From positions 1 to 64,000 of the forward strand of contig JAMASS010000018.1 in NCBI GenBank assembly GCA_024761205.1: 64,000 nucleotides of DNA, in the 5' to 3' direction. The position numbers were made by a program, and so were the translations under genes. Of this stretch, positions 13,849 through 18,771 are shown in pieces. Within the stretch, counting starts at the first letter, position 1; each line of letters begins with the position of its first letter. This stretch comes from Limisphaerales bacterium (GTDB taxonomy: Bacteria > Verrucomicrobiota > Verrucomicrobiia > Limisphaerales > AAA164-E04). The notes under the pieces were generated by a model. That model had not been told where the DNA came from, searched no databases, and was given only the letters and a program-made list of their open reading frames with translations.

Positions 13849-14085
13849 TTAGGAACACCCTAAACTCTCACCACAATTCAGGCATTTGTGGCAAGCCCCG
13901 CTTCTCACCGTGAGCGACCCGCAATTCGGACAAGGCGGCGCATCTTGCTGAAAGTGTGCGATGACATTGCTTAACGATTCGATGGGCTCGGATCCGTGCC
14001 TATGCACTTGCGTCACCGTGACGGGGCGAGTCGCATCGCTCTTCTGAATGATCTCGGTCTCCTCAGCCAAGGGGAGATCGGTCAC
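13849..14085 (-). CDS. nrdJ: C-terminal zinc-ribbon part of the class II ribonucleotide reductase, out of frame with the main ORF
   Basis: This 78-codon frame encodes what is normally the C-terminal tail of B12-dependent ribonucleotide reductase. It has a linker and then CPNCG...CHKCLNCGESLGCS, a four-cysteine ribbon that recycles the active-site disulfide. The frame is open upstream through the A10 run at 14097-14106, where the main ORF is in another frame. One extra A (or a -1 slip) would fuse the two as ...EEEVKKKTNRTVTDLPL. Independent translation from the GTG at 14085 is possible, because the two ORFs overlap by four bases (GTGA), but there is no known precedent in this family that I can name. 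It is probably the tail of the neighbouring gene. Confidence 0.8.
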   Translation of the reverse strand: MTDLPLAEETEIIQKSDATRPVTVTQVHRHGSEPIESLSNVIAHFQQDAPPCPNCGSLTVRSGACHKCLNCGESLGCS

Positions 14086-16688
14086 CGTCCGGTTAGTTTT
14101 TTTTTTACTTCCTCCTCAAGGCCTGGCATGGTTAGTTCAGCCTGCGCCAATTTCGGATCCTCATCCTGTGCATCATCACCGAACTCATTATCCAGCCAAC
14201 GGAACACATAATCCGTGATCGACGAAGCATTACGGATAGCCGGATTCTTCGTGAATCCGGACGGCTCAAAACGCTGGTGCGCGAATTTCTTGGCCAGGAC
14301 GGGCAGAGGGACGCCATACTGGAGGGCCATACTCGTGAGAGTCCCAATAGTATCCATCAACCCCCCGATAGTTGACCCCTCCTTCGCCATCGTCACAAAC
14401 AACTCACCGGGCGAACCATCCTCGAACAACCCCACCGTCAGATACCCTTCGTGCCCGGCCACATCGAACTTGTGCGTCTTAGCCTTCCGAGTGTCCGGCA
14501 ATCTTCTGCGCTGAAGCACCGGCGCGTCATCATCCTCTGACGTGCTCAGAGGCTGCGACCGTTTCGATCCGTCGCGATAGATGGCCACGCACTTTAGCTC
14601 CTGCTCCCACGCCTTCACGTAAGCGTCCTCTATTTCCTTGACCGTGGACTCCTTCGGCATATTCACCGTCTTTGAGATTGCCCCGCTGATGAACGGCTGC
14701 ACCGCCGCCATCATATTCAGATGCCCCATATAATGAATACTGCGCTTCCCCTTTGCCGGTCTGAACGCACAATCAAAGACTGGCAAATGCTCGGATTTCA
14801 GTTCGGGACACCCTTCGATAGTGTCGTGCTCCTCGATATACCCTACGATCTTTTCAATATCCTCATGCAGGTAACCGAATCTTTTCAACGCCTTAGGCAC
14901 CGTCTGATTGACGATCTTGAGCGTCCCGCCTCCGGCCAGCAACTTATACTTCACCAGCGCAATATCCGGCTCGATCCCTGTCGTATCGCAATCCATCATG
15001 AACGCAATCGTTCCCGTGGGCGCGATCACCGTCACCTGCGAATTACGAAACCCGTGAGACTCTCCCAATGCCCTGGCATTGGTCCAGATCAAGTCTGCCC
15101 TTTCCTTGAGATTGCTGAAGCTTTTAGACTCCTTCAACCAGTTCCTGTGAGCCATGTGCAAGTCGATCACCTCCAGCATAGCCTCTCCGTTAGTCCTCAG
15201 TCCTTTATCATAGAAACCTTTGAACGCCCCTAATTTCTGTGCTAATACCGCTGACTGTTCATAAGCCGTGCCCGTCATCAGTGAGGTGATACATCCCGAG
15301 AACTCCCTTGCCTCCGGCGAATCATAAGGCAATCCGTAGTGCATCAGTAGCGCACCTAGATTAGCGTAGCCAAGACCGAGCGGCCGGAACCGGTGAGAGT
15401 TCTCGGCAATCTTCGCCGTAGGATAACTAGCGTTATCCACCAGAATATCCTGCGCCGTGATGAGAATCCGCACCGCTGCCTGAAACCTGTCCACGTCGAA
15501 GAGAGAATCTTCTTTCATGAACTTCATTAGGTTCAACGAAGCCAAGTTACAAGCCGTGTCATTCAGAAAGACGAACTCCGAACAAGGATTCGTGGAGTGA
15601 ATGTCGTCCGTGGCCTTGCATGTGTGCCATTTCTGAATGGTCTTGTCGAATTGTAACCCGGGGTCGCCGCACAACCAGGTGCCTTCGGCGATCTTGCGGA
15701 GCAGCGTTGCGGCATCCTTCTGCTCCAGACAACCCCCTGTGACTCCCCTCGTCCACCATTCCTTCTTATCTCGGGCAGCCTGCATAAACTCATCGCTCAC
15801 GCGCACCGAGAGATTCTCGTTCTGGTACATCACACTGCCATAAGCAGTCCCGTTGTAAGAACCGTCATAGCCCTTATCAATCAAAGCCCACGCCTTCTTT
15901 TCCTCCAACTGCTTAGCCTCGATAAATTCCTCAATATCCCCGTGCCAATCCCGCAGCGTATTCATCTTGGCTGCACGCCGAGTCTTCCCTCCGGACTTCA
16001 CCACATTCGCCACCTGATCGTAGACCTTCAGAAAAGATAATGGCCCTGACGGTTTTCCCCCGCCGCTCAACTTCTCCCTGCTCGACCGGATAGTCGTCAA
16101 ATCCGTCCCCGTGCCGGACCCGTGCTTGAACAACATGGCCTCACTCCGTGCCAAGTCCATGATCGACTCCATATTATCCTCCACCGACTGGATAAAACAG
16201 GCGCTGCACTGAGGACGTTCATATTGCGTGGAGCACCTCTCAGCTTTCCATGTCTCCCGATTAACCGCCCAATTACCGATCCCTGAATTCTTACCGGCAT
16301 CATAAAACTCATGCACACCCACATTGAACCACACCGGAGAATTGAACGAGGCATATTGATTCAGACACAACCACTCCAATTCATCCTGGAAAACCAAAAA
16401 ATCCTCATCTTTGAAATAACCGTCCTTGCTGCCCCAATCAGTAATCGTACGGCACACACGTTTGATCAGGTGCTGCACCGAGTTCTCACGCTCATCTGCA
16501 CCGAGTTCACCATAGAAGTACTTGGAAGCCACCACGTTCGTAGCCAGCACGGACCATGACTTGGGTGCATACACGTTATCCTGTTTGAAGATGACATTCC
16601 CCTCGGCGTCCTTGATCTCCGCCGTCCGTCTCTCCCATTTCACCTCATCAAAAGGTGATATCCCCTCCTTACTGAAAATCCGTTCCAT
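14082..16688 (-). CDS. nrdJ: Adenosylcobalamin-dependent (class II) ribonucleoside-diphosphate reductase, main part
   Basis: The 868-residue protein reduces ribonucleotides to deoxyribonucleotides with a B12-derived radical. The N-terminus is complete (FSKEGISPFDEVKW, PKSWSVLATNVV). The active site is NPCSEF, with Asn367, Cys369 and Glu371, and the redox cysteines are Cys161 or Cys164 (CSACF) and Cys380. The later TGTIAFMMDCDTTGIEPD loop is also intact. The ORF ends eleven codons after a GLEEEV segment because an A10 run (T10 on the plus strand, 14097-14106) puts the zinc-ribbon tail in another frame. The start at 16688 is forced by an in-frame stop two codons upstream. An IS element ends only 10 bp before it, and no clear ribosome-binding site is left. 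Confidence 0.95.
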   Translation of the reverse strand: MERIFSKEGISPFDEVKWERRTAEIKDAEGNVIFKQDNVYAPKSWSVLATNVVASKYFYGELGADERENSVQHLIKRVCRTITDWGSKDGYFKDEDFLVFQDELEWLCLNQYASFNSPVWFNVGVHEFYDAGKNSGIGNWAVNRETWKAERCSTQYERPQCSACFIQSVEDNMESIMDLARSEAMLFKHGSGTGTDLTTIRSSREKLSGGGKPSGPLSFLKVYDQVANVVKSGGKTRRAAKMNTLRDWHGDIEEFIEAKQLEEKKAWALIDKGYDGSYNGTAYGSVMYQNENLSVRVSDEFMQAARDKKEWWTRGVTGGCLEQKDAATLLRKIAEGTWLCGDPGLQFDKTIQKWHTCKATDDIHSTNPCSEFVFLNDTACNLASLNLMKFMKEDSLFDVDRFQAAVRILITAQDILVDNASYPTAKIAENSHRFRPLGLGYANLGALLMHYGLPYDSPEAREFSGCITSLMTGTAYEQSAVLAQKLGAFKGFYDKGLRTNGEAMLEVIDLHMAHRNWLKESKSFSNLKERADLIWTNARALGESHGFRNSQVTVIAPTGTIAFMMDCDTTGIEPDIALVKYKLLAGGGTLKIVNQTVPKALKRFGYLHEDIEKIVGYIEEHDTIEGCPELKSEHLPVFDCAFRPAKGKRSIHYMGHLNMMAAVQPFISGAISKTVNMPKESTVKEIEDAYVKAWEQELKCVAIYRDGSKRSQPLSTSEDDDAPVLQRRRLPDTRKAKTHKFDVAGHEGYLTVGLFEDGSPGELFVTMAKEGSTIGGLMDTIGTLTSMALQYGVPLPVLAKKFAHQRFEPSGFTKNPAIRNASSITDYVFRWLDNEFGDDAQDEDPKLAQAELTMPGLEEEVKKKLTGR

Positions 16689-16698
16689 AGGTTAAAAC

Positions 16699-16741
16699 AC
16701 TTGACTAGAGGGGGATGTCAAGGGTAGTTTCAGGGGCATGG
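16699..16741 (+). repeat. Inverted end of the IS1595-family element (nrdJ side)
   Basis: It pairs with 18709-18751 in inverted orientation with five mismatches. The stop codon of the small membrane-protein gene (16705-16707) lies inside it. The nrdJ start codon is 10 bp outside. Confidence 0.85.
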
Positions 16742-17010
16742 ATGGTGTCTTGTTTCACAAAGATATCTTTGGCTATCAACAGTCCTAGCCCAATAAGTCC
16801 CACAATACATAGCTTCCAGAATGTATCACTTATCCTTTTTTCAAGTTGCCCTGGCGTGGCGTAATGGTCTTTTTCTACTAGACCTTCTATTTTTGCTAGA
16901 CGGCTTGGAATATTTTCATCAATTAGCTTGCTAATCAGGAAACGTTGGTGTTCCATTAAAGCTTGGATGTGTGCAACATTCGGATTCTCCGGGGTGATGG
17001 GAGGTGTCAT
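16705..17010 (-). CDS. Small single-span membrane protein, candidate toxin or partner of the Panacea protein
   Basis: The 101-residue protein has a soluble helical N-terminal two thirds (LMEHQRFLISKLIDENIPSR and a following charged helix). One membrane segment is near residues 68-84 (FWKLCIVGLIGLGLLIAKDI), followed by a short tail. No family is recognised. Its ATG overlaps the stop of the Panacea gene by four bases (ATGA), so the two are translationally coupled. Panacea domains act as antitoxins for many unrelated toxins, some of them membrane proteins, so by context this could be the toxin. There is no direct sequence evidence for toxicity. Its C-terminus is encoded by the element's inverted end. 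Confidence 0.6.
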   Translation of the reverse strand: MTPPITPENPNVAHIQALMEHQRFLISKLIDENIPSRLAKIEGLVEKDHYATPGQLEKRISDTFWKLCIVGLIGLGLLIAKDIFVKQDTIHAPETTLDIPL

Positions 17011-17474
17011 TTTGATTTCTTGGGCCCTTCATCAGCTAATTTTTTATAGTATCGCTTAATGACATCATTGGGGATAATGCAGCCGGTTCCGAATTCTCGG
17101 CGAGCGATATCCCAGGGTGTTCCGGGCTGATGGGTAATAGCGGACAGCGTAATTGCACTATACCCTTGGTAAGCATTGACAACCTCCTGAATATGTTCGG
17201 ATTGTTCCTTTGTGAAATCCTTGGTTTGGTCAACCGGATTGCTCGTTATCTCATCTCCTCCGAATGATTTGTAGCGATGATATGTGCTCGGAATAACAGG
17301 GCCGTATGTCCATGCTTCAACATCTTCACAGATCAAAGAGCAATCATACCGCCCTAACATCCAACCATGGGCAATATAGACTAGCTTGACGAGGTGCATT
17401 GGCGTCGTGCCAACATCTTTTCGCAGCCACAAAATCTGATCTTCAATCAATTCCGCTGATTTGATGTCGCTCAT
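17007..17474 (-). CDS. Panacea-domain (DUF4065, SocA/GepA-like) protein, candidate antitoxin
   Basis: The 155-residue protein carries the Panacea/DUF4065 fold across most of its length. HLVKLVYIAHGWMLGRYDCS and the following LICEDVEAWTYGPVIPSTYH match the family hallmark (a KLLYFAQGW-like helix, then EAWxYGPVxPxxY). HQPGTPWDIAR fits the later conserved TPW region. The family includes SocA, an adaptor antitoxin, and PanA antitoxins that neutralise diverse partners. The gene sits between the transposase (79 bp away) and the small membrane protein (4-bp overlap), all on one strand. A mobile toxin-antitoxin pair is the natural reading, although an anti-competition or regulatory role cannot be excluded. 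Confidence 0.85.
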   Translation of the reverse strand: MSDIKSAELIEDQILWLRKDVGTTPMHLVKLVYIAHGWMLGRYDCSLICEDVEAWTYGPVIPSTYHRYKSFGGDEITSNPVDQTKDFTKEQSEHIQEVVNAYQGYSAITLSAITHQPGTPWDIARREFGTGCIIPNDVIKRYYKKLADEGPKKSK

Positions 17475-17553
17475 CGTTGTCTCCTTTTATTTTTAATTTA
17501 TGATAGTTCATTAGATGAAACTCGCCAGTGACTGAAAGTTCCAGGTTTTTAAT

Positions 17554-18708
17554 CTAATCCTTCAACCAGGGTGCGATGCCCTTGAGAAACACGGGTTCGT
17601 CCTGGTCAGATTTGCCCCGTTCCTTGCGAGGCATGGGCGGCGGCGGCGGGATTTTACCGGGCCATTTGTTCGTGAGGGATTTCACGACATATTGAACCTG
17701 CCATAGAGTGGGTTGTCCTGCTGTTCCTGATCTGTCTTTTGTGTAGTCTTCATGGTTGAGTTGTAAAGCCGGTTGAGTCAATTGCTTCCAAGTGAGCTGC
17801 TTTCCGATCATCCCTTGCAGCAATGTATTCGTAATAGACATGGTGTCTTCTCCCAGATTCAACCGCCCGGTAAATTCTCTCACATAACTGGCCATATGCT
17901 TCGGGCTAAACCAATGATAGGTGCCATGATATGCTCGTTTGAGCACCGCCCAGAAGGATTCAAGGGAGTTGGTATGGGCTGCTCCACGGACGTATTCACC
18001 TTGCTTGTGATTCACCGATTCATGGTTGTAACCTGCATTTGCCAATCCTTGATAGGATCGGTGTTCATCGGTGTAAATCGTGGAACCCGGACGGACGTGC
18101 TTCTTGATGAGCCGCTGCAAATACTCCTTGCTGGTGTTCGGGACGGGGAAAGCCTTGACCTTTCCTCCTCGCTCGCGCATTCCCAAGACGGCAGTTTTCC
18201 CTACCGGACCTCTGCCTTCCCTTGCTTTTTGGCGAGCGTGTTTGTTCTTTTCTTTGCCGCCCATATAGGTCTCGTCAATCTCCACCTCGGGTCCCAGCAA
18301 CATGTCTCCCACTGCAAAAGACAATCTGATCCTATGCGCTAGAAACCAAGCAGATGTTTGTGATATACCCAGACATTTTGACAACTGAATGCTTGAAATG
18401 CCTTTTCTCCAAGTTACCAGAAGATAGGATGCTGTCAACCATTTCAAAATGGGAATGTGACTCCGAGCCATGATGGTCTCTGTCCGAACGCTGAAGTATT
18501 TTTCGCATTTGCGACAACGCCACGGCATTGGCTTGCGGCTTTTCACCCTTGATGTCCGCTCAGATTCGCAATGAGGGCAAGTCACCTTCCCTTGCCACCG
18601 ATTGTTTTCCACATGAGCCTCCGCTGCCCGTTCATCCGGGAACAATCGGAAAAATTGAAACGCACTCAGCACCGTGGGCTTATCCCCAACATCAGAAATC
18701 TCTACCAT
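17554..18708 (-). CDS. IS1595-family transposase (ISXO2-like DDE)
   Basis: The 384-residue enzyme has an N-terminal zinc ribbon (Cys44, Cys47, Cys65, Cys68), then a helix-turn-helix-like segment (KGISSIQLSKCLGISQTSAW). The catalytic domain follows with Asp145 (EIDETYMGGK), Asp214 (IYTDEHRSY) and Glu250 (TNSLESFWAVLKRAYHGTYH). It is intact and longer than most members because of a C-terminal tail rich in Pro, Arg and Lys. It would cut and join the inverted ends at 16699 and 18751. Its transcription runs toward the passenger genes and then nrdJ. Confidence 0.93.
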   Translation of the reverse strand: MVEISDVGDKPTVLSAFQFFRLFPDERAAEAHVENNRWQGKVTCPHCESERTSRVKSRKPMPWRCRKCEKYFSVRTETIMARSHIPILKWLTASYLLVTWRKGISSIQLSKCLGISQTSAWFLAHRIRLSFAVGDMLLGPEVEIDETYMGGKEKNKHARQKAREGRGPVGKTAVLGMRERGGKVKAFPVPNTSKEYLQRLIKKHVRPGSTIYTDEHRSYQGLANAGYNHESVNHKQGEYVRGAAHTNSLESFWAVLKRAYHGTYHWFSPKHMASYVREFTGRLNLGEDTMSITNTLLQGMIGKQLTWKQLTQPALQLNHEDYTKDRSGTAGQPTLWQVQYVVKSLTNKWPGKIPPPPPMPRKERGKSDQDEPVFLKGIAPWLKD

Positions 18709-18751
18709 CCATGCCCCTAAATCTCCCCTTGACCCCCCCCTCTAGTCAAGT
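18709..18751 (-). repeat. Inverted end of the IS1595-family element (transposase side)
   Basis: It is the partner of 16699-16741. It lies directly upstream of the transposase start codon and probably contains its promoter. A C8 run (18733-18740) falls inside it. Confidence 0.85.
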
Positions 18752-18771
18752 TAATAGGTCCCGGAAAAAAC

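Follow-up and report, generated by a model that had tools for sequence, protein, structure and literature searches.

An IS1595-family element carrying a Panacea gene and a small membrane-protein gene as a putative toxin-antitoxin pair in a Limisphaerales bacterium, and apparent cargo exchange among its relatives

The window, by which we mean the whole stretch of 64,000 nucleotides of Limisphaerales DNA under study, contains an insertion sequence (IS) of the IS1595 family in which the transposase gene is followed by a Panacea gene and an overlapping gene for a 101-aa membrane protein (Table 1). This composition had been proposed by a sequence-only reading of the window and is borne out. The transposase matches DDE_Tnp_IS1595 in Pfam (PF12762, E=1.2e-45) and NF033547 in NCBIfam (E=1.1e-54, 185.6 bits, cut-off 75), and its N terminus matches the zinc ribbon Zn_ribbon_IS1595 (PF12760, E=4.2e-9, 36.7 bits, cut-off 25.4). 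The inverted ends, earlier described as 38 identities in 43 positions, are the same feature as the two 48-nt arms found here, which are 90% complementary. On the transposase side, the end common to the sister copies of the element lies 11 nt outward of the arm, as GGGACCTATTAACTTGACTAG at 18742-18762 of the minus strand matches the sister-copy end with 2 mismatches to the pattern given below. The outer 11 nt at 16699 do not match the sister ends, and no recognisable 8-bp target duplication surrounds this copy, which is designated C10. As the sequence-only reading had stated, the two passenger genes overlap by ATGA (17007-17010) and the last stop codon, a TAG at 16705-16707, lies within the right arm. 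Its assignment of the passengers to the element stands as well, the pair being located between the transposase gene and the right end in C10 and in the sister copies C41 and C21.

Table 1. Features of the element C10, in positions of the window
Feature	Position	Strand	Length	Remarks
Element C10	16699 to about 18762			all three genes on the minus strand
Right terminal inverted repeat	16699..16746			outer 11 nt of the sister copies not conserved in C10
Single-span membrane protein, putative membrane-acting toxin (PanT-like)	16705..17010	-	101 aa	
Panacea-domain protein, putative antitoxin (PanA)	17007..17474	-	155 aa	
Spacer 5′ of the Panacea gene	17475..17553	-		ribosome-binding-like stretch AAAAGGAG just before the Panacea ATG
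IS1595-family transposase	17554..18708	-	384 aa	no internal stop
Left terminal inverted repeat (transposase side)	18704..18762			arm 18704-18751 plus 11 nt further to the common end GGGACCTATTA

The first passenger is a clear member of the Panacea family (PF13274, E=2.8e-20, 73.7 bits, cut-off 25.7). Its motif G58-P59-V60 is invariant in all seven Panacea copies of the genome, and the importance of this GPV motif has been described (PMC8832971). A structure predicted from the seven-row Panacea alignment reached a mean pLDDT of only 41.0, and no solved structure matched the alignment in sequence at E<=0.1. The 101-aa product of the second passenger matches no Pfam family at E<=1 and none in NCBIfam or PADLOC, and its matches in PHROGs are at chance level. 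Its best 19-aa hydrophobic stretch comprises residues 67-85 with a mean Kyte-Doolittle value of 2.31. A ribosome-binding-like stretch precedes the Panacea start in all five copies compared, and a search for a sigma-70-like promoter gave no match on the gene strand of C10.

The pair is a repeated feature of this genome. A Panacea search of its 4,941,577 bases in 92 contigs recovered seven copies (C10, C40, C35, C55, C3, C21 and C41), and the sister proteins are 61-76% identical to that of C10 in the alignment. In six of the seven, a small gene with an open frame follows directly 3′ of Panacea and encodes 87-103 aa, with a hydrophobic stretch in the C-terminal part. It lies within the 100 nt allowed for a partner gene, overlapping Panacea by 4 nt in C10 and likewise overlapping it in the remaining five. 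The seventh copy, C21, has a frameshift in the small gene, the putative toxin, and Panacea is still open there. The start of the small gene in C10 is shifted relative to the sibling copies, and its expression may differ.

The ends of the sister copies follow the pattern GGGA-N-TTA-N-TTACTTGACTAG, which at up to 3 mismatches matches the genome 21 times as compared with 4 matches for a control in which the pattern was reversed. The two 21-nt ends of C41 are identical, and a perfect 8-bp duplication, AAAAATAT, borders the element on both sides. A copy with different cargo, C18, is likewise flanked on both sides by a perfect 8-bp duplication, TAATTTTT. C3 spans 0.9 kb (L021, 6298-7199) and is made up of the pair and both ends without a transposase gene; its target duplication, AGAACTTA/AAAACTTA, agrees in 7 of 8 positions, and its homology to C10 starts about 40 nt before the Panacea start. 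Both ends are present in C21 with no duplication, C40 is interrupted by a contig end, and C35 and C55 contain the pair with no recognised ends. The full 384-aa transposase frame is found in C10 only; a 337-aa frame persists in C41, and the gene is broken or partial in C18, C40, C92 and C21. Because the arrangement recurs in the genome, its ends are common to the sister copies and C41 and C18 have perfect 8-bp duplications, it is more than a chance association. A search for the pre-insertion site of C10 gave no anchor for the region upstream of the reductase gene in three genomes of the same genus.

Outside this genome the picture is different. A search of 96 other relatives at E<=1e-20 found no Panacea of this group in 95 of them, and the single match is distant (1.2e-26). 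A profile of the small protein, built from six copies that match it by construction, found nothing at E<=1e-5 in the 292 other genomes of the order (293 with this one); within this genome all its matches adjoin Panacea, and there is no seventh or orphan place. The sequence-only reading had proposed recurrence of the pair between the same ends as a check and had counted occurrence only here against itself. This objection applies by half: the pair does recur within this genome, and it was not found at these thresholds in the other genomes searched.

Other members of the element group in the same genome carry different genes in the slot occupied by the pair. The 3,016-base contig C92 is occupied over its whole length by a single element. 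Its transposase gene is frameshifted, and of its two cargo genes one encodes a C5-cytosine methyltransferase (PF00145, E=2.8e-74) and the other a 250-aa protein that belongs to no known family. Further copies of the left end of C92 lie close to the ends of four other contigs (C6, C11, C89, C87), and copies of its right end close to the ends of three (C30, C60, C67), at distances of 104-128 bases. A collapsed repeat would produce this pattern, and we infer that C92 represents at least four copies. Single-sequence structure prediction of the 250-aa partner gave a mean pLDDT of only 33.4, and no solved structure matched it in sequence at E<=0.1. In C18 the cargo is a gene for an 86-aa protein of no known family together with a frame resembling aspartyl proteases (PF13650, E=1.7e-7), and is not obviously an addiction module. 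Two further places were left out of the count of complete elements, as they lack a duplication or have one end only. One of them, C21b, is 1.5 kb long and bounded by inverted ends; a type I restriction fragment was recognised in it (HSDR_N_2, E=1.6e-5, 25.4 bits, cut-off 25), and it has neither transposase nor duplication. The other, C3b, has kept a single end next to a pair of genes resembling a restriction-modification (R-M) system; Pfam names neither gene, and the pair was recognised by eye from its likeness to the genes of genome G001 described below. A second subgroup of ends in the genome (L036, L037, L044) is associated with a transposase and no obvious cargo.

Comparison of these copies shows that the pair is not a fixed cargo of the IS lineage. 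A tree computed from the DNA of six transposase genes places the R-M copy C92 together with two Panacea copies, C41 and C21 (support 100/100). C18, the copy with the protease-like frame, is joined to the Panacea copy C40 (100/99). The transposase gene of C41 is 82.1% identical to that of C92 as against 74.0% to that of C10. Homology between C41 and C92 breaks off in the interval that separates the transposase frame from the cargo. For C10 and C18 the breakpoint is no more than about 5 nt away from the cargo starts, and for C18 and C40 no more than about 45 nt. From the tree and the positions of these breakpoints, the cargo appears to have been replaced while the transposase stayed.

The same IS lineage is present in other genomes. 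At E<=1e-45 the transposase was found in 14 of 387 genomes of the phylum, this one included, with 16 places outside this genome; together with a locus on a viral contig, L174 (48%), these form a set of 17 external loci, all from beyond the genus of this genome. A further viral-contig locus, L175 (30%), was left out. In 12 of the 17, ends with at least 18 of 26 matches and an 8/8 duplication emerged as the best-scoring solution. When left ends were paired with the right sides of other loci as a control, none of the 17 reached 8/8, the best value being 7. The remaining five (L179, L180, L184, L185, L189) showed no credible ends, and L182 and L183 are one element in two genomes.

The cargo of these elements is diverse. 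An IS1595 element in G001, a genome of the same genus, has a transposase 45% identical and a perfect duplication, ATCTCTAT, and carries genes for a methyltransferase (PADLOC MTase_II, 8.8e-31) and an endonuclease (REase_II, 2e-12); scans of viral contigs gave no relative of this endonuclease or of the 250-aa partner in C92. On the viral contig, L174 combines an N6_N4 methylase (2e-37) with an MvaI/BcnI endonuclease (7.2e-27). EcoRI-type methylases occur in L177 (1.5e-39), next to an unnamed 101-aa gene, and without its start in L178 (1.6e-85), next to a GmrSD_N/HNH endonuclease (REase_II, 7.2e-137). L186 contains a HicA-like gene (9.7e-7) and a RelA_SpoT gene (1.8e-17), and L188 a HicB-like antitoxin gene (3.7e-7), an 82-aa gene that is HicA-like by eye only and a 342-aa gene whose product is 25% identical to the cargo of L187. 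In L176, L181, L182/L183, L187 and L191, the libraries do not clearly tie the cargo to R-M or toxin-antitoxin (TA) systems; it includes a DUF2335 membrane protein, HTH proteins, an outer-membrane barrel and a sub-threshold UPF0150 match. L190 has no clear cargo. Altogether, R-M or TA-like cargo is recognisable in five of the 12 elements, or six of 13 when G001 is included, and in roughly half of the complete elements related to C10 the cargo is named by no library. PADLOC matches below 1e-10 were obtained for seven of ten chosen cargo proteins and for none of ten flanking proteins (best 2.3e-5), a comparison to be taken as an illustration and not as a measured enrichment, the cargo having been picked for its defensive look rather than blind and the flanking proteins being 10 of 21.

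The R-M genes in related elements, together with the match of the RelA/SpoT-domain cargo of L186 to the phage-defence candidate family PDC-S33 (E=4.7e-111), are what would be expected if the cargo were kept mainly as anti-phage defence, acting by abortive infection or restriction, and not through addiction, with the IS spreading defence genes. However, neither the Panacea protein nor the small protein of C10 has a PADLOC match, and the HicA/HicB-like cargo suits addiction equally. We regard defence as a rather unlikely main reason for the maintenance of the cargo, and note that defence and addiction roles are not mutually exclusive.

A second question concerns the role of the small gene. The Panacea gene is under purifying selection, with dN/dS values of 0.19-0.44 in 20 of 21 pairs of copies. 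The exception is the low-divergence mosaic pair C35-C55 (dN/dS 0.94, dS 0.05), in which C55 seems to combine sequence of C35 with that of a C40-like copy. For the small gene, the 11 pairs whose dS is below 2 give dN/dS values of 0.43-0.84; two more pairs are saturated, and two with dS above 3 are unreliable. The gene evolves fast and its constraint is weak. The chance that one small ORF stays open, with substitutions alone at 0.5 per site, is 0.9-5.2%. Thus, the antitoxin-like gene is well conserved, and the toxin-like gene is fast-changing but kept open.

Panacea genes elsewhere provide a second line of comparison. A survey of 2,281 Panacea proteins reported nine newly validated pairs, three of them with membrane-acting toxins, one of which has a coiled-coil-like N terminus and C-terminal transmembrane helices; many of the PanAT loci lie near transposases (PMC8832971). 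In the same survey only five taxa had more than five Panacea genes, so that the seven found here are a high number. Among 44 external Panacea loci related to the group, a 3′ ORF with a predicted membrane span adjoins Panacea at 11 of the 15 loci in named genomes and at 18 of the 29 on viral contigs, a set that includes near-duplicates. One locus, L056, comes from Bartonella strain BBC0122, and one of the validated Panacea pairs with a membrane-acting toxin belongs to that strain (PMC8832971). In two of the 44 loci (L052, L122) an IS1595-type transposase lies directly 5′ of Panacea; no fitting inverted ends were found there, and these loci were rejected as elements of the same kind. A horizontal prophage origin of the pair was also rejected, the viral relatives being 33-50% identical in Panacea and having different partners.

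The sequence-only reading had presented the membrane protein as a new type of toxin. As a kind it has precedents, a third of the newly validated Panacea toxins acting on the membrane (PMC8832971). As a family it may be new: the profile of the small protein compared with ten membrane partners of related Panacea proteins (Bartonella-like group) gave an hhalign probability of about 0%, in a weak test with a thin alignment (Neff 2.2) and ten of the sixteen intended partner sequences. The small protein seems to resemble the membrane-acting partners in architecture and position, with no detectable sequence similarity. Its dN/dS near 0.4-0.8 and the lack of a known family would also suit a functional Panacea protein whose neighbouring ORF is not its toxin, being either a fast-evolving by-product or an accessory membrane anchor. 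Against this stand the open frame in six of seven copies, the overlap with Panacea, the hydrophobic stretch that is always C-terminal, and a position and architecture matching those of membrane-acting Panacea partners (PMC8832971), and we consider such a role unlikely. It is very improbable that the two genes encode no toxin and regulate the element itself by transposition control, since the pair, although co-oriented with the transposase gene and ending in the right inverted repeat, persists in the absence of a transposase in C3 and also in C35 and C55, where no ends were recognised, and sister elements without the pair carry unrelated cargo. A plain IS with chance ORFs was rejected in view of recurrence and selection.

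Taken together, C10 is likely to be a transporter-type IS of the IS1595 family with a PanAT-type toxin-antitoxin module, in which the small protein would be toxic and Panacea would neutralise it. In such an element, which may still transpose today, the transposase would act on ends of about 48-60 nt, and the slot between its gene and the right end would accommodate the two-gene module. Panacea would be the antitoxin that binds and silences the small membrane protein. The latter, a predicted coiled-coil/single-span protein, would act as the toxin, probably by depolarising the membrane when free of its partner. Addiction by TA and R-M systems is usually explained in this way, by a longer-lived toxin that acts after its genes have been lost. 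Were the element lost or disrupted, a toxin outliving its antitoxin would no longer be met by fresh antitoxin, and retention of the element would be favoured. That the IS keeps the pair as an addiction module, as the sequence-only reading had suggested, is supported only indirectly, by Panacea family membership, by selection and by the R-M and TA-like genes in the slot of related elements, which point in the same direction as the addiction logic. As C3 suggests, the pair might be kept or moved without a transposase of its own, movement then occurring in trans, and it would be one of several interchangeable, mostly self-stabilising or defensive cargos of related elements.

More tentatively, we think it quite possible that the IS1595 lineage is a platform that swaps whole two-gene modules between the transposase gene and the right end, with a preference for small self-stabilising ones such as R-M systems, Panacea pairs, HicA/HicB-like and RelA/SpoT-type genes. 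The modules would then keep otherwise expendable IS copies in place, module-only copies would use a borrowed transposase, and the small protein would be a new family of Panacea-controlled toxins.

The individual ingredients of this arrangement have precedents. With PanAT systems the pair shares the Panacea domain with GPV, the antitoxin-first order of two genes and a partner with a predicted membrane span (PMC8832971); it differs in its location between the inverted ends of an IS and in its presence as seven diverged copies, one of them without a transposase. IS with passenger genes, IS1595 members included, are a known kind (PMC3129680; PMC5704250), and tISCpe8 and MTnSag1 are named among them (PMC5704250). 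Like transporter IS of this family such as tISCpe8, the element combines a zinc-ribbon transposase, inverted ends, passenger genes and, in sister copies, 8-bp duplications. Unlike in the known examples, the cargo is a PanAT-type pair, with R-M or TA-like genes in several relatives, and closely related copies in one genome differ in cargo. Transposons of the Tn3 family carry TA genes as part of the transposon unit (PMC7157771), as is the case here for the putative pair; the element described here has a transposase of another family, is much smaller and has relatives with R-M genes in the same slot. R-M systems linked to IS have been viewed as selfish, addiction-type cargo (PMC3031569; PMC4176335). 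In those cases IS copies flank the R-M genes, whereas here the R-M genes lie within one IS, between the transposase gene and the right end. Mobile insertion cassettes consist of ends and cargo without transposase (PMC3129680; PMC7157771). C3 corresponds to this type in having both ends, the pair only and a near-perfect duplication, and is set apart by its PanAT-type cargo; its movement would have taken place in trans. In the open-licence literature, searched by title and the start of the abstract and with few subscription journals, we found no Panacea pairs in IS and no exchange of addiction modules in IS1595.

If correct, the proposal would show how TA and R-M modules are carried and recombined by mobile DNA of the smallest class, and would explain the persistence of IS copies with dead transposases. 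What drives the swapping of Panacea partners is an open question in PMC8832971. With seven diverged pairs, at least one of them a mosaic, next to cargo-swapped relatives, this genome would then offer a natural experiment on such swapping. It is the wider pattern of cargo swapping that specialists should examine, and the elements would make it directly testable whether a TA pair or an R-M module stabilises the IS that carries it.

The small membrane-protein gene of the window copy begins at the ATGA motif (region 16980-17015), and in the sister copies on contigs C40, C35 and C3 the start lies about 22 nt earlier, within the Panacea gene. The N-terminal frame of the window copy's small gene appears shifted relative to these three. 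The C3 copy (L021, 4600-6900 region), which has no transposase, is flanked on both sides by genes with many leucine-rich segments repeated at regular intervals. Both Panacea pairs without recognised ends lie in partly duplicated surroundings, flanked by pieces of what by eye is an apparent site-specific DNA methyltransferase gene; the C55 copy seems to be a mosaic, made up of C35 and of a copy resembling C40.

At two external Panacea loci the neighbouring transposase belongs to another IS1595 subgroup (Table), and inverted ends sought in these stretches were not found.

Coordinates of Panacea loci and of other IS1595 cargo
Locus	Positions	Feature
L020	5328-6069	Panacea pair without recognised ends
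L022	6100-6838	Panacea pair without recognised ends
L052	1414-3264	IS1595-type transposase (another subgroup) directly 5′ of Panacea gene
L122	3544-5076	IS1595-type transposase (another subgroup) directly 5′ of Panacea gene
L019	7004-7704	Cargo of IS copy on contig C18: 86-aa gene without family, aspartyl-protease-like frame
L187	4223-5257	Cargo protein, 345 aa
L188	3623-4648	Cargo protein, 342 aa

Other cargo also occurs. The C18 copy has a perfect duplication, and its cargo does not look like known addiction modules. The L187 and L188 cargo proteins, from two IS1595 elements, are related (25% identical), with neither a clear Pfam family nor a PADLOC match. A restriction-modification-carrying version of the window copy's IS (L018, contig C92), involving also the contig ends C6, C11, C89, C87, C30, C60 and C67, appears to be present at least four times in the genome. 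Its transposase is frameshifted, and the copy may be mobilised by the transposase of another.

Downstream of the window element lies a gene in the same orientation (14082-16699) that codes for 868 aa; by eye the product resembles a B12-type ribonucleotide reductase, and the gene's ATG is about 10 bp past the element end. Since the passenger operon is directed straight into this gene, the IS may affect its expression.
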